Shown: positions 31,645-41,425 of the stretch, piece after piece
How the letters are laid out: each line of letters opens with the position of its first letter
Position numbering within the stretch: the first letter of the stretch is position 1
Assembly: GCA_902801565.1 (NCBI GenBank)
Contig: CADCIX010000002.1
Location: 1 to 64,000, forward strand
DNA: 64,000 nucleotides
Direction: 5' to 3'
DNA from: an uncultured Veillonellaceae bacterium
Lineage (GTDB): Bacteria; Bacillota; Negativicutes; Selenomonadales; Selenomonadaceae
Notes under the pieces: generated by a model
Database searches by the model: none
What the model was told of the DNA's origin: nothing
The model's input: the letters and a program-made list of their open reading frames with translations, nothing else
Position numbers and translations under genes: made by a program

Positions 31645-34600
31645 TTGAATGACTGGTTTTACGGGATGGGAACAGGAATGAAAGGAAAAGGAACGGGCAT
31701 AGCGGCAAGTGTTTTCATAGGAATTGCTTTGATCGGCTTCTTGGCCGCCGGGTTCGTTCTGAGATCCGAGGCGTTCATGGAACGGGCGGGGGCGACAGCA
31801 GCGGAAAAGGCTGCTGAGCTCCTGGGCGTTCCCATGGAAGTCGGGAGCATCGAAGTGGAGTCCTTTCATTCCCTTGTCATCAGGGATATTGCTGTTTATG
31901 ACAAACAGGCAGAATGTATCGCCCGGGCAGAGGAAGCACGGGTGAACTTCCGCCTGTTTTCTGCATTGCAGGAGAATCCGGCAGCAGCCGTGGATGAGGT
32001 GGTATTGCACCATGTATCTGTCAATCTCGTGCAAAGGCCGGATGGCACATGGAATGCAGAGGATATCGAGACCTCGGAAGGCGGGGAGAATGCCTTTCGA
32101 GGAAAAGTGGTTGTGGAAGATGGTACACTCAGAGGAAATGTGCAAGGGAAGGAGCTTGTACTGGAAAATGTGACGGCTGGTTTGGACATGGCGGATTACC
32201 CTGTCATGAAGGTGGAGGCCTCTGCAGAGAACCAGGGAGCGAAAATCCAGGCTGGCGGCACACTTGGAAAAGAACGGCAGATTCTTACGGCACATGTGGA
32301 AGGCGTGGATTTGGAGAACTACTTTTCTCTTGTTCCTGAGGGGCTCATCCCGGAAAATGTGAAGATTGTTTCCGGCGAGATTCCCAAGGCAAAGGCGGCA
32401 ATCCTTCGTCAGGGCGATGTGCTCAGTTTCAGTGGCCAGGCGGAATATCAAAAGGGTGTCGTGCAGGTGGAGGGAACGGAAATCCGGGATATCCATGGCT
32501 TTGCAACCTTCACGGATTCGGAGCTAATGCTGTTCACGGATGCGGAGTCCATGGAGCAGAAGGCGCATGTGCATGGAAAGCTTCGCTGGGATACAGGTGC
32601 GCCTTACATGGATCTTTATGCGAACTCGGATTCCTTTGACCCGGGGGCAATTCTCCCCACGATTCCTTTCCAGGGCGCCGTGGACTTTCAGGCGCATGTG
32701 GCCGGTTCGTTTACAAATCCCACTGTGGATGGGGATTTTCATGTGGCATCCGGAAGGATTGAGGATATCCAGATCCAAAATGCGGCTGCACATGTTTATT
32801 TTGCTGATCATGCTCTCTATCTTCAGGATGTTTCGGCAGGCATGCTTGATGGCACGGTCAAGGGGGAGGGAGAACTCCGCCTGGATGATATGGCCTATAC
32901 TGCCCATGTGAAGACCGGGGACGTGGAGGCCGCTTATTTTGCGGATTATATTCCGGGGGTATCGGGACGATTGTCGGCCGATTTGGGAATCAGCGGTCAG
33001 GGGACAGGCATGGAGAACCTGGAGATTTATGGAAGCGTCAGAGCCAAAGATGCTTTCTATCAGGAGCTCCCCATCACGGATCTCAGTGCTTCCTTCTATG
33101 CGAAAGGACAGGATGTCACCATTGACTATTTGAGCCTTCAAATGCCGAATCATAGTGATATCGGTCTGGAGGGAACCATCAAAGATGGGAATGACCTGGA
33201 TCTTTCCTTTTATGGCGGGCATGTGGATTTTTCCATGCTTTCGAAACTTGTTCCGCAGGCAGATATCACTGGATTTGGAGATTTTGAGGGCAAGATCAAG
33301 GGGGGCATGGAGAACCCTCAGGTAGGGATTCGTCTTTCTTGTTTGAAGGGAACTCTTTTCCAGCAGCCCTTTGACTCCCTCAGGGCATCCATGGGCGGGA
33401 GTCTTGATGGGATAGGCATCCGGGAATTCTTTATGGAAAAGGATGGCCATGAAGTCTGGCAGGTGAAAGGCTATGTCGGTTTTGTGGGGGAGAAGCGCAT
33501 TGACCTGCAGGCAGATACCGTTGGGGCCCGCATGGAAGACATTGCAGCTCTCGTGGCTCCGGACCAGCCAATCACCGGCAATGTGGACAATACGATTCGC
33601 GTGACGGGAACCTTGGACAATCCTCATGCAGTCGGGTACATCCATATGTATCGTGGCAGTTATCGGGGAATGCTGGTCATTGGCATGGATGGCGATTATT
33701 TCCTGGAAGGGGACAAGGTGCGACTTCAGGATGCACGTATCCGGACTCCGATGATCGATATGGATGTCAGTGGTACGTTGGATTACAAAACCATGCAGAT
33801 GGATATGGATTTGTCCGTTTATGATATTGATATGAAGCGGTTGGAGAATCGGTTCCCATACGAGGTGAGCGGTCATGGAACGTTTTCCGGAAAGGCATCG
33901 GGAACCATTGATGAACCTGTTTTCCGAGGGATTCTTGATGCACCGGAACTTGTTCTCAACGAGCAGAGCATCACGCAGGTTCATGGTGAGGTGGAGTATG
34001 CGAAAAATCAAGTGACCTTGAGGGAATTTGGATTCGACCAGAAGGAAGGCCGCTATCGTCTCAATGTGGGAATGGGGATGGATGCTTACAATCTGTCCGG
34101 CAGCGCTTCTGTCAGGAATGCGGATATCAATGCGCTTTTGGCCATGCTCGACCAGAAGAATGACAAGATACAGGGACGGCTGGATGCTGATGCTGTGTTG
34201 GGCGGATCGTTGGACAATCCTTCGGTCCGCATGTCCGGGAGCATCCTGTCAGGATTGCTTGCCGGATACGACGTTCATGATGTAGCATTTCAGGCAAGTA
34301 TTGCCGACAGGGTATTGGCGGTGGAAAAGCTCACGGGATCCCAGGGGGAAACCGGTCATTTTGATGCTCTTGCCAGCATTAGCATGGATGGCCCTATTCA
34401 GGGAACGATTTCTGCCCATGATCTGGAGGCGGGGCTTTTCACGAAACTTGCCGGACTTGACACAGAGGTTGTGGGTTTGGCTGATGTGGAGGCAAGCATC
34501 GGGGATGTTCTCCAGAACCCGTCGGCAAATGTTTCTGTGAATGTGCGCAATGGAGGCATTCAAGGGTCTACCTTTGACAATCTGCACGGAGTGTTTCTGC

Positions 34601-36012
34601 TGAAAAACGGCCTTGTGGATGTACAGGAACTCATGGTGCAGAAGATGGTCGCAGAGAAAAATTATCAGGCCAGTGCCAAGGGAATCGTTCCTCTGCGGGC
34701 GGTTTTCGCGACGGCCGGAGAAGAACTTGATGACTATGAGCAGATAAAGTTGGGGTTCAGCCTGGATGAGGCAGATCTGAGTTTGCTTCCCCTATTGTCT
34801 GATCATGTGGATTGGGCTCTGGGAGAGATGGACGGAAATGTGGAGATTACGGGGACACTGGCCCATCCGCTTGCTCATGGCAGTATCCGTGTTCCGGCTG
34901 GCAGCCTGAAGATCAAGGAATTGGAAAAGCCCATAACGGATATGCAGCTGAATATGATATTCCGGGGAAATGTTTTGGATCTGGAGGAATTTTCCGGCAG
35001 CATGGGGGAGGGAAATTACAGGGCGGTTGGTTCTTTGGCCTTGGATGGAACATCCCTGTCAAAATATGATTTCCAAGTGGACATGGATCAGCTTGATGTA
35101 CAAAGCGATTTCTACCGTGGCCCGCTTTCGGGACAGTTCCATGTGGGAGAGGGAGAGTTCGAATGGTTGGACAGGACAATTGTCCGTCCAAAACTTACTG
35201 GAAATCTCCAGCTGGAGCATTGCCTGATATCTGTGCCTGCCATTCCGGAGACAGAAGGGGAAATGCCGGAGGCATTCCTGGATGTTTCTGTTGAATTGGG
35301 GAAGAAGGTGCATTTCTACAGTCCCAGTCTTTATGATATGTATCTGACGGGAACTGCGCACTTTGAGGGCTCGACCAGGTATCCCAAGACATCGGGGATG
35401 ATTTCTGTGCGGCGCGGGGGCACCTTTACCTATTTGAAGAATGTGTTCAATATCCGTGAAGGAGAGATTTCCTTCAATCAGGTGGACTCTTTTGTGCCCA
35501 GCATGTCCTTTTTTGCGGATACACGTCTGGGTAGAACGAAAATCTTCCTCTGGGGCAAAGGCCCGCTGGGGAGCGATCAGATGCAGCTGCGCCTGACATC
35601 TTCTCCGGAAATGAGCCAGACGGAAATCATCCAGATGCTTACCTTCCGCAGTTCCTATAAAGATGGGAAAGCCACCTTTGATGTGAGTGACTTGCTCCTT
35701 ACAGGACTTCAAATGAGCATCCTTGCCGATCTGGAGAATTCCATGAAAGAGATTCTGTATCTGGATGTCTTTTCCGTTTCCCATGGCAGTGGATCGGCTT
35801 TCGGCAAGGATGAGGATGATGACTATTACAGCCTGACTGTTGGAAAGTATTTTGGCGACAAGCTTTTGCTGAGGTATACGCAAGGCTTTGGCACCGGGAG
35901 CGACAAGCATCGCTTCGGCATGACGTACGAGTTTAACGACCGCATCGGTCTGACGGTAGAGCAGGCAGGCTCAGAGAGCATTGTCGGCTTGGAGGCAAGA
36001 ATCAAATTCTAG
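31645..36012 (+). CDS. tamB: TamB/AsmA-like inter-membrane bridge protein
   Basis: A 1455-residue protein with one N-terminal membrane anchor (ASVFIGIALIGFLAAGFVL), a very long stretch of repetitive beta strands and a C-terminal TamB (DUF490) domain around MISVRRGGTFTYLKNVFNIR through VGKYFGDKLLLRYTQGFG, ending in LEARIKF. The beta-taco fold of such proteins forms a hydrophobic groove for phospholipid transfer between membranes, and TamB also assists barrel assembly with an Omp85 protein. Here bamA is the next gene and no TamA is visible, so TamB and BamA probably cooperate, as proposed for diderm Firmicutes. The start is uncertain: TTG 31645, or ATG 31666 or 31678. Confidence 0.93.
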   Translation: MNDWFYGMGTGMKGKGTGIAASVFIGIALIGFLAAGFVLRSEAFMERAGATAAEKAAELLGVPMEVGSIEVESFHSLVIRDIAVYDKQAECIARAEEARVNFRLFSALQENPAAAVDEVVLHHVSVNLVQRPDGTWNAEDIETSEGGENAFRGKVVVEDGTLRGNVQGKELVLENVTAGLDMADYPVMKVEASAENQGAKIQAGGTLGKERQILTAHVEGVDLENYFSLVPEGLIPENVKIVSGEIPKAKAAILRQGDVLSFSGQAEYQKGVVQVEGTEIRDIHGFATFTDSELMLFTDAESMEQKAHVHGKLRWDTGAPYMDLYANSDSFDPGAILPTIPFQGAVDFQAHVAGSFTNPTVDGDFHVASGRIEDIQIQNAAAHVYFADHALYLQDVSAGMLDGTVKGEGELRLDDMAYTAHVKTGDVEAAYFADYIPGVSGRLSADLGISGQGTGMENLEIYGSVRAKDAFYQELPITDLSASFYAKGQDVTIDYLSLQMPNHSDIGLEGTIKDGNDLDLSFYGGHVDFSMLSKLVPQADITGFGDFEGKIKGGMENPQVGIRLSCLKGTLFQQPFDSLRASMGGSLDGIGIREFFMEKDGHEVWQVKGYVGFVGEKRIDLQADTVGARMEDIAALVAPDQPITGNVDNTIRVTGTLDNPHAVGYIHMYRGSYRGMLVIGMDGDYFLEGDKVRLQDARIRTPMIDMDVSGTLDYKTMQMDMDLSVYDIDMKRLENRFPYEVSGHGTFSGKASGTIDEPVFRGILDAPELVLNEQSITQVHGEVEYAKNQVTLREFGFDQKEGRYRLNVGMGMDAYNLSGSASVRNADINALLAMLDQKNDKIQGRLDADAVLGGSLDNPSVRMSGSILSGLLAGYDVHDVAFQASIADRVLAVEKLTGSQGETGHFDALASISMDGPIQGTISAHDLEAGLFTKLAGLDTEVVGLADVEASIGDVLQNPSANVSVNVRNGGIQGSTFDNLHGVFLLKNGLVDVQELMVQKMVAEKNYQASAKGIVPLRAVFATAGEELDDYEQIKLGFSLDEADLSLLPLLSDHVDWALGEMDGNVEITGTLAHPLAHGSIRVPAGSLKIKELEKPITDMQLNMIFRGNVLDLEEFSGSMGEGNYRAVGSLALDGTSLSKYDFQVDMDQLDVQSDFYRGPLSGQFHVGEGEFEWLDRTIVRPKLTGNLQLEHCLISVPAIPETEGEMPEAFLDVSVELGKKVHFYSPSLYDMYLTGTAHFEGSTRYPKTSGMISVRRGGTFTYLKNVFNIREGEISFNQVDSFVPSMSFFADTRLGRTKIFLWGKGPLGSDQMQLRLTSSPEMSQTEIIQMLTFRSSYKDGKATFDVSDLLLTGLQMSILADLENSMKEILYLDVFSVSHGSGSAFGKDEDDDYYSLTVGKYFGDKLLLRYTQGFGTGSDKHRFGMTYEFNDRIGLTVEQAGSESIVGLEARIKF

Positions 36013-36169: not shown

Positions 36170-38065
36170 TTGAACAAGAAGAAGTGTCGTTTTCTGGTAT
36201 ATGCAGTGGCACTGGCTGCCGGGATGTCTGCTGTTCCAGGAACTGCAGGCGCCGATCCTGTGGAATCAGACGCTGCAGTCGTGTCTGATGCAGTGGTCGA
36301 TGATCTGTCAGGACAGCCTGCTTCGGAAGTTCCCGCATCGGCTTCCGATGTGGCAGTGGAAGAGGGGGCTGTAAAGGGGGAGGCGCGTCCGGATGACCAA
36401 GCCATTCGTGAGAGCATCCAGAAGTTTGACGGGCTGACCCTGGCGGAAATAAATTTCGCCGGTGGCTCGGAACAGACGAGAGCCACGGCGCAGGCAGCCA
36501 CGTCCTTGCGTGCAGGGGATGCTTTTACAGCGGATGCTTTGGATAAGGATGCGGAAGCCATCATGAACACAGGCTACTTCGTCGATCTTTATCCCAGTTT
36601 CGAGCAAGTGCCGGAGGGAATCGTTCTGACCTATCACTTGCAGGAGTATCCTGTTTATCGTGGGGTGGAGTTTTCCGGGAACACGGTGGTGTCCACCGAG
36701 GAACTGAAGAAGATGGTCACCCTGCGGGAGGGGGAATCGTTCAACGGGATTACCTTCCACAAGAACATGCAGGCGGTTGAGGACAAGTACCATGAGGAGG
36801 GGTATATCCAGGCTAGGATCGTGGATATGCACCAGACGGCAGATGGCATTATCCAGGTGAAGGTCAATGAGGGCGTCCTGGAAGGATTCAAGGTCAAGGG
36901 GAACGAGAAAACGAAGGAGTATGTCATTCTTCGTGAGATGCGTCTGAAACCGGGGGAACCGTTCAATGCAAAACAGGCAAGACGCAGCATTCAGCGTGTG
37001 CAGAATCTCGGCTTTTTTGAGGATGTCAATGTTAAGATACTTCCGGGCGTTGATCCGAATGCCATTGTCATGGAGATCGATGTAAAGGAGAAGCGCACGG
37101 GAACCTTTGGCGTGGGCGCTGGCTACAGCAGCCAGGATGGCATCATTGGCATGGTGAGCGTCAGCGACACGAACTTCCGGGGAACCGGGGATGCTGTGTC
37201 TGTGATTTATGAGATGAGCGGCGATGACACAGATGCACGGGGCTATAGTTTTTCCTATCGTCATCCGTGGCTGGACCGCAAGGAGACAGCCCTGACGCTG
37301 CGGCTCTATAACCGTAGCTATGACTACAATGATTATGATACGGATGGGGACCTGAAAGAAGAATATATGCGGAAATATTCCGGGGGTGAGATTACCCTGT
37401 CCCGTCCCATCAGTGAGTATTCCACGAACTATCTCACACTCAGGAACCGCAAGGATTCTTATGAAAAGCATCTTGAGAGCGGCAATGCGGGAGATCGAAG
37501 CACGGAGGCGGGAGATGCATGGCGGGAGGCCAATTTCGGTACGACGCGCAGTATTACCTTCCAGCATGTGACGGATACAAGGGACAATATATACGAGCCC
37601 ACGGAAGGCGGTCGGGTGAGTCTTACCGCTGAGATCGGGGGATTTGGCGGGGATTTCAGTTTTCGCAAGGCAAGCATTGAGGATCAGAGATACTACAAGG
37701 TAGGACATTCTCAAGTGGTGGCGACGAGATTGGCATATGGCATCGGCAGCGGGGATATTTCCGAGTTCAACCAGTTCAAGGTGGGTGGACAGGATACCCT
37801 GCGTGGCTATCGGGATGACCAGTTCCGGGGCAATCGGATGTTCATGGGGACTTTGGAATACAGATTTCCTCTGGTGAGCAAGGTTCAGGGGGCTATTTTT
37901 ACTGATTGGGGATCAGCCTGGGATGGCGGATTCAAGCCGAAGGATCTGCATGGCAGCGTTGGCATAGGCTTGGCACTCAATACTCCGTTGGGACCGCTTC
38001 GCCTGGACTACGGTCGCAGGTCCGGTGGCGGGCGTGTGCATTTCAGTGTGGGAGGAACGTTCTGA
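36170..38065 (+). CDS. bamA: outer-membrane assembly factor BamA (Omp85 family)
   Basis: A 631-residue Omp85 protein that folds and inserts outer-membrane barrels. TTG 36170 follows AGGAGG and gives a signal peptide (CRFLVYAVALAAGMSAV). After an acidic Ala/Ser/Glu-rich stretch come three POTRA modules (about residues 85-325, for example VYRGVEFSGNTVVSTEEL and LEGFKVKGNEKTKEYVILRE), fewer than the five of E. coli BamA. The 16-strand barrel follows with the conserved LRGYRDDQFRGNRMF (loop 6 RGF/Y motif) and ends VHFSVGGTF, with the terminal Phe barrel signal. It lies between tamB and the OmpH-like chaperones. Confidence 0.95.
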   Translation: MNKKKCRFLVYAVALAAGMSAVPGTAGADPVESDAAVVSDAVVDDLSGQPASEVPASASDVAVEEGAVKGEARPDDQAIRESIQKFDGLTLAEINFAGGSEQTRATAQAATSLRAGDAFTADALDKDAEAIMNTGYFVDLYPSFEQVPEGIVLTYHLQEYPVYRGVEFSGNTVVSTEELKKMVTLREGESFNGITFHKNMQAVEDKYHEEGYIQARIVDMHQTADGIIQVKVNEGVLEGFKVKGNEKTKEYVILREMRLKPGEPFNAKQARRSIQRVQNLGFFEDVNVKILPGVDPNAIVMEIDVKEKRTGTFGVGAGYSSQDGIIGMVSVSDTNFRGTGDAVSVIYEMSGDDTDARGYSFSYRHPWLDRKETALTLRLYNRSYDYNDYDTDGDLKEEYMRKYSGGEITLSRPISEYSTNYLTLRNRKDSYEKHLESGNAGDRSTEAGDAWREANFGTTRSITFQHVTDTRDNIYEPTEGGRVSLTAEIGGFGGDFSFRKASIEDQRYYKVGHSQVVATRLAYGIGSGDISEFNQFKVGGQDTLRGYRDDQFRGNRMFMGTLEYRFPLVSKVQGAIFTDWGSAWDGGFKPKDLHGSVGIGLALNTPLGPLRLDYGRRSGGGRVHFSVGGTF

Positions 38066-38069
38066 GGGG

Positions 38070-38198
38070 ATAAGAATATTTTGCCCTTGGCAAAATTTGA
38101 ACCCCCTCCGGGGGCTAGCTTCGCGTCGCAATGCGTTATGACGGGGCAAGCCCGTCGAAACGACAATAAGAATATTTTGCCCTTGGCAAAATTTGAAC
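38070..38198 (+). repeat. tandem 33-bp direct repeat carrying a -35 palindrome
   Basis: An identical 33-bp segment occurs at 38070-38102 and 38166-38198. Each copy contains the palindrome ATTTTGCC-ctt-GGCAAAAT, which overlaps the TTGGCA -35 box. In the first copy the rest of the promoter is interrupted by about 26 bases with a CCCCC/GGGGG hairpin before AATGCGTTAT resumes (about 38130). The second copy is intact and drives the OmpH-like gene. Confidence 0.8.
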
Positions 38199-38211
38199 AA
38201 TGCGTTATAAT
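38183..38211 (+). promoter_or_regulatory. promoter of the OmpH-like gene, copy 3 of the shared extended promoter motif
   Basis: TTGGCA (38183-38188), 17-base spacer with TTTGAACAATGCG, TATAAT (38206-38211). It matches the serS and rnhA promoters, with one base missing in the spacer. Confidence 0.8.
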
Positions 38212-38269: not shown

Positions 38270-38737
38270 ATGGTACAGTTGCAGAAAACTCAGGTAAAGG
38301 TTATCAGCATCCTTATTGCGTTGGTATTTGTGGGGAGCGTTGTTGCCATTGCGCTCACACAATCTGGTTCCGGCATTGTGTCGGCAGCAGGGTCTTCGAA
38401 TGTGGGTGTGGTGGATTATCGTCAGATCATGAGCCAGCATCCGGATCTTCAGAGTGCAAACAGCCAGATGCAGCAGGCTGTTACTGATGCCCAGAAGGAC
38501 TTCGAGGAAAAATCTGCGAACATGAGCGATCAGGAGAAGAGCGATTATTACCAGCAGACGCAGCAGCGCCTCCAGCAGAAGCAGGAAGAGCTTCTCGAGC
38601 CCATTCAGAAATCCGTGGAGGATGGAGTCAAGAGCGTGGCGGATGCAAAAGGCCTTTCCGTTGTCCTCGATAAGAGCACGGTGGTATATGGTGGACAGGA
38701 TATCACGCAGGATGTCATCAAGAAGCTTTCCAAGTGA
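38270..38737 (+). CDS. OmpH/Skp-like periplasmic chaperone
   Basis: A 155-residue protein with an N-terminal membrane anchor or signal segment (VISILIALVFVGSVVAIAL), then VGVVDYRQIMSQHPDLQSA, the typical OmpH/Skp entry strand. A coiled-coil hairpin follows (about residues 65-120) and then the closing VADAKGLSVVLDKSTVVYGG strand. Skp-type trimers hold unfolded outer-membrane proteins on the way to BamA, whose gene is directly upstream. It is about the usual Skp length. It has its own strong promoter and ends in a terminator, so it is expressed separately from the next two OmpH-like genes. Confidence 0.9.
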   Translation: MVQLQKTQVKVISILIALVFVGSVVAIALTQSGSGIVSAAGSSNVGVVDYRQIMSQHPDLQSANSQMQQAVTDAQKDFEEKSANMSDQEKSDYYQQTQQRLQQKQEELLEPIQKSVEDGVKSVADAKGLSVVLDKSTVVYGGQDITQDVIKKLSK

Positions 38738-38761
38738 TATCCATTATACAGGGATTGATGT

Positions 38762-38791
38762 TGCCGAGCCCGTCAGAGTGCTCGGCATTTT
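38762..38791 (+). terminator. intrinsic terminator after the first OmpH-like gene
   Basis: TGCCGAGC (38762-38769) pairs with GCTCGGCA (38780-38787), followed by TTTT. Confidence 0.75.
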
Positions 38792-38826
38792 CATAGGTGC
38801 AGTTTTTTCCCTATAGGAGGAGCCAT

Positions 38827-39921
38827 ATGGCGAAGAAGGCACCGCCGGGGCAGCAAGCGGAAGCAGAAAACGCAGAGTCCTTTTGGAAAGGACGGAAGGC
38901 TGCTATATGCGCAGGCATTCTTTTTTCAGCAGGGATGATTGTGCTGGGCGGATGGATGCTGCATTCCTGGCTTGCTCCACCACCGCCTGTTCCTGTTGTG
39001 GAACGAAAGGAGATCGGTTTCCTGAATCTTCAGGAGGCTGTCAAGGCGCATAAGGATTACAAGAGACTCCAGGAACTTCGGCAGGAATACCTGGCACTGC
39101 GTGAGGAGATTGCAGCTTCCATACCCTTGCCGATTGTGAAGCCGCCGGAGGTGGAAGCAAAACCTTTCGATGATTCTGTGTGGCAAAAGAACGCACAAAA
39201 TATCATCGGAAGGCGGGCAGAGATTGAGCGGAAACAGAAGCGGGCTGCCGAGGAATATTATGAGACGAATCAGGAAGAGTACATGGCACAAAGAGATGCC
39301 ATTGATGCACAATACCTCAGTGATATCACGAACCTGAGATTGAAACTGGACAATGCGGATGTCCTGGGTCTCGACAGGGAGCTCGTTGCCCAATTGTCCG
39401 AGCAGATGGCGCAATTACAGAGGGAACGCGGAGAGAAACAGGCATTATTGCGCGAACAGTGGGATGATGCCATGGAGCAATATGCCCGGCAGGCAGTGGC
39501 ACAAGACCTCGATGAGCTGCGGACCCAGGCCAGCGCTTCCAAGGAACAGCTGGAGGCCGAAGCGGTAAAGCGGCGGTCTGAGGCGCAGTCCAGGGATGTA
39601 CTGGCAATGGAAGCGAGGATGGAAGCGTCCGAACGTTTTCAGAAGACGATGCAGAAGCGGCAGGAGCTTGACGGGAAGCAGGATGAGATTCTTTCCCTGG
39701 AAAAACACATTTTTAATGATGTGGCAGGCAAGGCGGCGAAGCTGGCAATCCTGCATCATTTCACGATGGTTATTGCAAATCCCGCTGCGCGTCTGGAGCC
39801 GCTCATCCCTTGGCCAAACAGGGTAGGACCTGCTCTTGAACGTCATTCTGAGGTGATTGTTTCCGGAGACGGCGATATCGAAGACATTACAGAGGAACTT
39901 GTTGCAGAGCTTAAGAGATGA
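38827..39921 (+). CDS. large membrane-anchored coiled-coil protein, OmpH-like, between two Skp genes
   Basis: A 364-residue protein I can place only loosely. A short cytoplasmic N-terminus precedes one membrane segment (AAICAGILFSAGMIVLGGWML), a proline-rich linker (LAPPPPVPVVERKE) and then GFLNLQEAVKAHKDYKRLQ, which mimics the OmpH/Skp entry strand and first helix. About 220 residues of Glu/Gln/Arg-rich coiled coil follow, and a C-terminal strand-rich part (AAKLAILHHFTMVIANPAAR) resembles the closing strands of OmpH. So it looks like an inner-membrane-tethered, greatly enlarged Skp-like chaperone facing the periplasm. ATG 38827 follows AGGAGG. The lipoprotein gene follows after about 30 bases. 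Confidence 0.75.
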   Translation: MAKKAPPGQQAEAENAESFWKGRKAAICAGILFSAGMIVLGGWMLHSWLAPPPPVPVVERKEIGFLNLQEAVKAHKDYKRLQELRQEYLALREEIAASIPLPIVKPPEVEAKPFDDSVWQKNAQNIIGRRAEIERKQKRAAEEYYETNQEEYMAQRDAIDAQYLSDITNLRLKLDNADVLGLDRELVAQLSEQMAQLQRERGEKQALLREQWDDAMEQYARQAVAQDLDELRTQASASKEQLEAEAVKRRSEAQSRDVLAMEARMEASERFQKTMQKRQELDGKQDEILSLEKHIFNDVAGKAAKLAILHHFTMVIANPAARLEPLIPWPNRVGPALERHSEVIVSGDGDIEDITEELVAELKR

Positions 39922-39952
39922 AACCTATCAAGGAAAGAAGAGAATAGCGACA

Positions 39953-40390
39953 ATGAAACTGAAAAAGAAATCTGCTGCTATGCTTGCAGCTGCCATGTTG
40001 TCCGCGATGCTTTTGGGTGGTTGCGGGCAAGTGAAAGTCGGTTATGTGGATGAGGCCCGTTTGGCCGGGGAGGCCCCCCAGATCAAGACAACCATGGAGG
40101 AGGGCGCGAAGAAACTTGAGGAGGTTCAGTCAGAACTGGAGAAGAAGTTTCAGGAGAACCCGAACATGACCATGGAGGAGGCACAAAAGCTTCAGCAGGA
40201 GGCCCAGCGCAAGGCAATGGGCATCAACCAGCAGTATATGACACAGGTACAGCAGAAAATGGACGTGGCCTTGGCAGAAATCGCAAAGGAAAAGAAACTC
40301 GATGTTGTGGTCGATAATGAGGGGCTGCAAAAGACCGTCTTGTTGGGTGGCATCGATGTTACGGATGAGGTCATCCAAAAATTGCAATGA
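39953..40390 (+). CDS. OmpH/Skp-like lipoprotein
   Basis: A 145-residue protein with a lipoprotein signal peptide (MLAAAMLSAMLLGGCG; lipobox LGGC, cysteine at residue 23). The mature part, VKVGYVDEARLAGEAPQ, then a Glu/Gln-rich coiled coil and AKEKKLDVVVDNEGLQKTVLLGG, follows the OmpH/Skp pattern. A lipidated Skp is unusual: the E. coli chaperone is soluble. Gly after Cys is not an inner-membrane retention Asp, so outer-membrane placement is possible but unproven for this clade. ATG 39953 has a weak upstream AAGGAAAG. LpxD follows in 15 bases, mirroring the skp-lpxD order of Proteobacteria. Confidence 0.88.
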   Translation: MKLKKKSAAMLAAAMLSAMLLGGCGQVKVGYVDEARLAGEAPQIKTTMEEGAKKLEEVQSELEKKFQENPNMTMEEAQKLQQEAQRKAMGINQQYMTQVQQKMDVALAEIAKEKKLDVVVDNEGLQKTVLLGGIDVTDEVIQKLQ

Positions 40391-40405: not shown

Positions 40406-41425
40406 ATGAAGAAGACGTTAAAAGAGATTGCCGCCTTTGTGGGAGGCCGGATTTCAGGGGATGACTCCATTGAGATTTGCGGCCTGGAAAATATCGAGGG
40501 GGCCGGTCCTTCGGATCTCACTTTTGCCGTGGAGCCCCACATTGAGGAGGCAAAATCTTCCAAGGCTGCAGCCGTGATGCTCCCAGAGGGTGTGGAAGGG
40601 TTTCCCCTTCCCGCCATTCATGTGGCGGAGCCAAAGGCTGCCTTTGCCAGGCTTTTGGAATTGTTCACACCGAAACTGGAGTTTGAAAAAGGTGTGAGCC
40701 CTGAGGCCCATGTCGGCAAGGATGTAAAACTCGGCAAGGACGTTATCATCATGCCCTTCGCCGTGGTGGACGATCATTGTGTGATTGGGGACAGGGTGAC
40801 CATCTATCCCCATGTTTATGTCGGACAATACGCCGAAGTGGGGGATGATTCCATCCTGTATTCCAATGTGACGGTGCGGGAGCATTGTCGTGTAGGAAAT
40901 CGATGTGTCCTTCACAGTTCGGCGGTGCTTGGGTCCGATGGATTTGGATTTACCACCAAGGATGGTATTCATACGAAAGTTCCCCAGGTGGGGAATGCAG
41001 TGCTGGAGGATGATGTGGAGATCGGTGCCCATGTCGGCATAGACCGGGCCGCCATGGGATCGACCGTCATCGGGCATGGGACGAAGATTGACAATCTCGT
41101 ACACATCGGGCATAATTGCAAGATAGGTCCCAACTGCCTCATCGTGGCACAGACAGGGATTTCCGGTTCCACGACGGTGGGCAGCAACGTGACCTTCGGC
41201 GGGCAGGTCGGGACGGTCGGACATATCCATATCGGAGGGAATTCCGTCTATGCGGCGCGTTCCGGCATCATCGGCGACATGCCGGAAGGTGTCTTCTGTG
41301 CAGGCTTCCCCGTGCAGTCACATGCAGAATGGCTGCGAATGCAGGCAGCCATGAAGCATCTGCCGGAAATGCGAAAGAAGATCAGACAGTTGGAAAAGAA
41401 GTTGTCTGAGTACGAAAAGAAGTAG
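40406..41425 (+). CDS. lpxD: UDP-3-O-acylglucosamine N-acyltransferase
   Basis: A 339-residue acyltransferase adding the second (N-linked) acyl chain in lipid A synthesis, using acyl-ACP. An N-terminal uridine-binding domain (about 1-100) is followed by a left-handed beta-helix of hexapeptides, with LVHIGHNCKIGPNCLIVAQ carrying the catalytic His region and VGIDRAAMGSTVIGHGT the family signature. A C-terminal helical tail ends EKKLSEYEKK. The length matches E. coli LpxD (341). ATG with GGTAGGG upstream. It starts the first lipid A block (lpxD, acyltransferase, lpxC, fabZ, lpxA, lpxI, lpxB). Confidence 0.97.
   Translation: MKKTLKEIAAFVGGRISGDDSIEICGLENIEGAGPSDLTFAVEPHIEEAKSSKAAAVMLPEGVEGFPLPAIHVAEPKAAFARLLELFTPKLEFEKGVSPEAHVGKDVKLGKDVIIMPFAVVDDHCVIGDRVTIYPHVYVGQYAEVGDDSILYSNVTVREHCRVGNRCVLHSSAVLGSDGFGFTTKDGIHTKVPQVGNAVLEDDVEIGAHVGIDRAAMGSTVIGHGTKIDNLVHIGHNCKIGPNCLIVAQTGISGSTTVGSNVTFGGQVGTVGHIHIGGNSVYAARSGIIGDMPEGVFCAGFPVQSHAEWLRMQAAMKHLPEMRKKIRQLEKKLSEYEKK

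Follow-up and report, generated by a model that had tools for sequence, protein, structure and literature searches.

Three Skp-family proteins between bamA and lpxD in Negativicutes, one with lengthened arms and two with predicted membrane anchors

Between bamA and lpxD, a rumen member of the Negativicutes carries three consecutive genes for different relatives of the OmpH/Skp family: a Skp-sized protein (OmpH1), a longer protein with a transmembrane segment and lengthened arms (OmpH2), and a second Skp-sized protein with a lipobox (OmpH3). The trio is conserved across the class, the middle protein changes between lipid and transmembrane anchors from family to family, and our searches of class genomes returned neither LolA nor parvulin domains. 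We put at about even the chances that the three proteins form a set of Skp-family holdases on the periplasmic side of the inner membrane, from which BamA would be fed.

The window, by which we mean the whole 64,000-nucleotide stretch analysed, comes from a genome of 2.71 Mb in 69 contigs (99.8% complete). In a BamA tree, the nearest relative of its bamA product belongs to locus L098 of an uncultured rumen genome (77% identity), inside the Selenomonadaceae. An initial annotation had placed three different OmpH/Skp relatives between bamA and lpxD; its coordinates, the length of 364 residues given for the middle protein and the LGGC lipobox all proved right (Table 1). Three skp genes following bamA have been described in Negativicutes by Antunes 2016 (PMC5007114) and Poppleton 2017 (PMC5491611), and the order seen here, tamB, bamA, three skp genes and lpx, agrees with that in PMC5007114. 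Among 80 named Negativicutes loci, about 75 show the order OmpH1-OmpH2-OmpH3, and the remainder stop at contig edges. The trio is thus not a product of chance, because essentially every Negativicutes locus examined has the same gene order. The start of OmpH2 is taken as an ATG, with an in-frame GTG also present 30 bases upstream. The gap between bamA and OmpH1 contains a perfect 30-base direct repeat, AAGAATATTTTGCCCTTGGCAAAATTTGAA (38072-38101 and 38168-38197), with a hairpin within each copy and no further copies in the window. The second copy provides the -35-like hexamer of a promoter-like site before OmpH1, although such sites come from a consensus scan only, which found three in the region against 2.1 expected.

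Table 1. Positions of genes and protein features in the region from tamB to lpxD.
Feature	Position in window	Strand	Basis or remark
tamB	31645-36012		before bamA
bamA (Omp85)	36170..38065	+	directly 5' of the trio; ORF list
Promoter-like site TTGGCA-17-TATAAT before OmpH1	38183..38211	+	11/12 consensus match; putative
OmpH1, Skp-sized OmpH protein, 155 aa	38270..38737	+	
OmpH1 hydrophobic stretch, residues 11-29	38300..38356	+	unusually conserved; pairwise identity
OmpH2, OmpH relative with long arms, 364 aa, predicted anchor in the inner membrane	38827..39921	+	AlphaFold2 and homology
OmpH2 transmembrane helix, residues 24-49	38896..38973	+	predicted helix; hydrophobicity of homologues
OmpH2 N-terminal OmpH part, residues 58-100 (first strand, beginning of ascending arm)	38998..39126	+	hhalign against OmpH1 alignment A1
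OmpH2 residues 101-284, extended helical arms, no OmpH match	39127..39678	+	hhalign 1-2%
OmpH2 residues 285-364, C-terminal OmpH part, invariant D353-x-T355	39679..39918	+	hhalign and invariant alignment columns
OmpH3, lipid-anchored (predicted) Skp-sized OmpH protein, 145 aa	39953..40390	+	
OmpH3 lipobox L-G-G-C (L21 to C24; C24 predicted as the lipidated residue)	40013..40024	+	sequence
lpxD, downstream edge of the trio	40406..41425	+	ORF; identity from sequence and cluster synteny (PMC5007114)

The outer two members of the trio are recognized directly by the Pfam OmpH model (PF03938), both above its cut-off of 32.4 bits. OmpH1, the Skp-sized member named in the initial annotation, matches at 8.7e-21 (75.1 bits), and OmpH3 matches at 6.8e-13 (49.5 bits); the two share 25% identity (BLASTP E 3e-11). 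The Skp structures 1u2m and 1sg2 ranked first among the PDB matches of OmpH1, but these matches were weak. An AlphaFold2 model of OmpH3 (mean pLDDT 87.0), with arms of 27 and 40 residues, matched Skp (1sg2, E 2.6e-4) and SkpA (8gl8) in Foldseek with a probability of 1.00 each, SkpA being the best match. The first strand of OmpH3 starts only 4 residues after C24, and the conservation of its arms is low (0.37). OmpH3 has the positive n-region, hydrophobic stretch and lipobox Cys of a lipoprotein, the genome encodes both Lgt and LspA, and G23 and C24 are invariant in 53 of 53 relatives; the lipobox thus looks usable, in agreement with the lipoprotein relative of the initial annotation. Elsewhere in the class, one genome (G047) has 21 matches to Pfam OmpH, compared to 3 in the genome of the window.

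Searched alone, OmpH2 matches no Pfam family at E<=10, thus falling below the OmpH cut-off, and NCBIfam returned nothing convincing. Pfam OmpH is matched, however, by 15 of 25 OmpH2 homologues at E<=1, the best at 1.1e-7, and in profile-profile comparison the OmpH2 family scores 96.5% against the OmpH1 profile and 95.7% against that of OmpH3. Residues 58-100 match the OmpH1 alignment at an hhalign probability of 92% (single-comparison E 6.1e-7), and residues 285-364 reach 94-95% (E 1.9e-7 and 2.6e-8). In the reverse direction, the OmpH1 and OmpH3 profiles recover 21 and 18, respectively, of the 65 OmpH2 homologues at E<1e-3, with zero matches to reversed and shuffled copies of the same sequences. 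An iterated HMM that merged OmpH1 and OmpH3 into the OmpH2 family was dropped as evidence because coiled coils drift, and the separate profiles with their reversed and shuffled controls were used instead. Matches of the OmpH2 profile (A2) to apolipoprotein A-I in the PDB were likewise set aside as amphipathic-helix noise. Because both ends match OmpH and residues 101-284 match nothing, OmpH2 is, on the evidence of sequence, an OmpH protein whose arms have been lengthened by the insertion of ~160 residues.

The extension is apparent from the spacing of the conserved motifs. The strand motif at the N terminus and the C-terminal motif are 79 residues apart in OmpH1, 82 in OmpH3 and 240 in OmpH2, so that OmpH2 has arms roughly three times as long as usual, and the span stays within 229-255 residues throughout the 65 OmpH2 homologues (median 243 for the lipid type and 248 for the transmembrane type). 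Core residues 112-175 of OmpH2 are conserved at least as strongly as its ends. In an AlphaFold2 monomer model (mean pLDDT 87.6), helices occupy residues 78-98, 112-175 and 184-309, and the elements follow the order strand, helix, long up-helix, long down-helix, strands and helix, which is also the order in the OmpH3 model. At 1.5 A per residue, the predicted ascending arm would measure ~15 nm and the descending arm ~19 nm. Because generic long coiled coils swamp the search, Foldseek listed no Skp among the 50 best matches to this model and had no match of any kind at E<=0.001. Structure prediction of the single proteins, as proposed with the initial annotation, therefore gave a Skp fold for OmpH3 and the matching order of elements for OmpH2, but not a Skp match for the latter, whose putative fold is identified from sequence together with topology.

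The 364-residue coiled-coil relative had been described as anchored in the inner membrane, and its predicted transmembrane helix and two OmpH ends agree with that description. Positive residues precede the helix and a proline-rich linker (50-62) follows it, and the positive-inside rule would set the orientation of the protein in the membrane. A candidate hidden lipobox in the OmpH2 of the window, C28 (AAIC), was rejected, because the hydrophobic stretch only begins there and the preceding residue is I. Of the 150 class genomes sampled, 144 contain OmpH2 at E<1e-20. It has been lost from between OmpH1 and OmpH3 in at least two small, nearly complete genomes, at loci L184 (G146) and L185 (G089), and is therefore not indispensable. 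A lipoprotein form occurs in Pelosinus, Sporomusa, Propionispora, Anaerospora, Lucifera and Phascolarctobacterium, and a transmembrane form lacking a lipobox in Selenomonas, Mitsuokella, Megamonas, Pectinatus, Propionispira, Massilibacillus and the present genome. Counted by sampled family, with assignments made by eye, 23 have the lipobox and 9 the transmembrane anchor. A tree built without the anchor columns, whose bootstrap values are not fully settled, calls for at least four switches of anchor, three of them forced by well-supported branches. On the BamA tree, with L088 left out (its middle gene lies beyond the contig end), the anchor labels need one change; the count of switches was taken from the wider tree built without the anchor columns.

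Profile searches found no LolA in the genome of the window nor in 100 class genomes, in agreement with published reports (PMC5007114, PMC5491611, PMC10665443). OmpH3 is accordingly left without the LolA expected to serve an outer-membrane lipoprotein of the Lol pathway. Since lipid and transmembrane anchors interchange on OmpH2 in a class without Lol, the lipid anchors of the trio most likely sit in the inner membrane and, by extension from OmpH2, this would probably place OmpH3 there as well. For Veillonella, PMC5491611 predicts one skp product of the cluster (vpar_0528-0530) to be a lipoprotein, which might be retained in the inner membrane. The parvulin PPIase domain (PF00639) was found in 0 of 100 class genomes, including that of the window, compared to 8 of 14 controls. 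Such an absence is unusual for diderm bacteria. SurA_N_3 and YfiO/BamD also gave no match in the genome of the window, with the same searches being positive in control genomes. Because parvulin, SurA_N_3 and YfiO/BamD were not found, a large share of the chaperone work for OMPs seems to fall to the Skp family.

Soluble placement in the periplasm, the rule for Skp according to the initial annotation, does not apply to OmpH2 or OmpH3, given their transmembrane helix and lipobox, and for OmpH1 it is uncertain. Residues 1-31 of OmpH1 (38270-38362) show a pairwise identity of 0.63-0.68 among class relatives, compared to 0.56-0.63 for the body, with F20 and Q31 invariant; an AxA-type cleavage motif at residues 37-39 is also kept. 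The ordinary pattern for a signal region is illustrated by BamA, with 0.29-0.38 against ~0.58 for the remainder, and likewise by OmpH3, with 0.27 against 0.37-0.52. Four-fold synonymous sites of OmpH1 are saturated, at ~0.30 identity in all regions, and the constraint on its signal region therefore acts on the protein. Because this region is as conserved as the body, tethering is possible, and OmpH1 may have an anchor that is cleaved slowly or not at all.

In the mechanism that we propose, OmpH1 would serve as a Skp-sized jellyfish protein, OmpH2 as a transmembrane-anchored Skp with arms of ~15-19 nm, and OmpH3 as a Skp body fixed to the membrane by its lipid with almost no linker. Presumably as trimers, they would catch beta-barrel precursors leaving the Sec channel; the long arms of OmpH2 would reach through the periplasm, and the bound precursors would be handed to BamA. 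The trio would thereby stand in for SurA/PpiD-type chaperones and for the BamB-E and Lol lipoproteins, which are seemingly lacking here. Against this placement speaks the outer-membrane fraction of Veillonella, in which all four of its Skp proteins turned up, although the method used leaves room for inner-membrane carry-over (PMC5491611). A more extreme version, in which the inner membrane holds all three proteins (OmpH1 through an uncleaved signal anchor) and an OmpH2 trimer spans the periplasm, permanently linking the Sec exit with BamA, seems to us quite unlikely. If true, the all-tethered trio would form a chaperone conduit in place of soluble SurA/Skp shuttling across the whole class.

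The initial annotation had suggested a relay of chaperones ending at the outer membrane or at BamA, which would place OmpH2 in the inner membrane, OmpH1 in the periplasm and OmpH3, delivered by a route other than Lol, at the outer membrane and docked at BamA. Such an arrangement would suit a protein held against its membrane by a 4-residue linker. The residue at position +2 of OmpH3 is G, which would not retain a lipoprotein under the E. coli rule. The fractionation of the Veillonella Skp proteins (PMC5491611) also points to the outer membrane; the outer-membrane proteins in that study were nevertheless without detected lipidated peptides, a result that its authors grade as inconclusive. The absence of Lol and the interchangeable anchors argue against a relay that ends on an outer-membrane lipoprotein. 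LolA was found in none of the 100 class genomes, in sister families OmpH2 itself carries a lipid in place of the transmembrane anchor, which would make sense with both anchors in the inner membrane, and a switch between lipid and transmembrane anchors implies, for OmpH2 at least, a single target membrane. We therefore consider the relay unlikely, and less likely than a holdase set at the inner membrane. Should at least one member of the trio instead be a fixed scaffold subunit of a BamA/TamB machine, it would resemble SkpA of the type 9 translocon. Flavobacterium SkpA is a structural part of that translocon and the second Skp of its operon is essential (PMC10994853), SkpA is the best Foldseek match of OmpH3, and the synteny with tamB-bamA is strict. 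The poorly conserved arms of OmpH3, however, fit the cavity of a holdase better than a rigid interface, and a structural role of this kind appears quite unlikely.

The tightly kept arm span of OmpH2, its well-conserved core and the generic coiled coils among its Foldseek matches would also be consistent with a mechanical spacer or tether, in which the arms set the spacing of the membranes or cross the peptidoglycan while the Skp ends serve for trimerisation alone. Pfam search of OmpH2 and 25 homologues, however, gave neither a peptidoglycan-binding nor an outer-membrane domain, the arms alone reach no defined partner in the model, and the class already has an outer-membrane tether in OmpM (PMC5007114), which makes us regard a spacer as quite unlikely as well. 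That the three are simply redundant Skp copies, each able to do the work of the others, is scarcely credible: several class genomes do have duplicated Skp genes, one of them with as many as 21 Pfam OmpH matches, but each member of the trio separately keeps its size, anchor style and gene position across the class. The inner-membrane holdase set thus remains our preferred reading.

To the question of how beta-barrel proteins cross a periplasm that has neither SurA nor Lol nor the BAM lipoproteins, the trio brings a class-wide candidate in the form of inner-membrane-tethered Skp, one with predicted arms long enough for most of the periplasm. The swap of lipid and transmembrane anchors on OmpH2 is, in effect, a natural experiment that bears on where lipoproteins are destined in Negativicutes, and Veillonella parvula is a genetically tractable species for tests. 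Three skp genes after bamA, and a lipoprotein prediction for one of them, are already published (PMC5007114, PMC5491611). The extension of the arms, the switch of anchors and the absence of parvulins were not found described in the open-access literature; lengthened arms, exchangeable anchors and a Skp set seemingly without its customary partner chaperones thus look undescribed.

Among known systems, the three-skp cluster of Negativicutes has the same genes, order and class as the trio; in the passages of PMC5007114 and PMC5491611 that deal with it, all three are treated as Skp copies, with no mention of arm extension, anchor switch or missing parvulins. OmpH1 and OmpH3 resemble E. coli Skp (1sg2, 1u2m) in size and either in sequence or in fold, and OmpH2 shares both ends with it. 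Unlike E. coli Skp, which is a single soluble protein, the present set has OmpH3 as a predicted lipoprotein and OmpH2 as a predicted transmembrane protein with ~160 more residues in its arms, in a genome that gave no SurA match. Flavobacterium SkpA and SkpB (8gl8, PMC10994853) similarly represent several Skp proteins of one operon with distinct roles. The 8gl8 chain, at 341 aa, is extended at the C terminus, whereas OmpH2 is extended in the arms, and SkpA is presented in the relevant sections of PMC10994853 with no membrane anchor described. In Veillonella, an elongated inner-membrane MlaD replaces both shuttle and lipoprotein (PMC10665443), which follows the same logic of lengthening an inner-membrane protein across the periplasm where Lol is lacking; MlaD differs in belonging to the MCE family, in its C-terminal outer-membrane barrel and in its role in lipid transport. 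By analogy, the nearest precedents would be Veillonella MlaD for the logic of the system and Flavobacterium SkpA/SkpB for the diversified roles of Skp.
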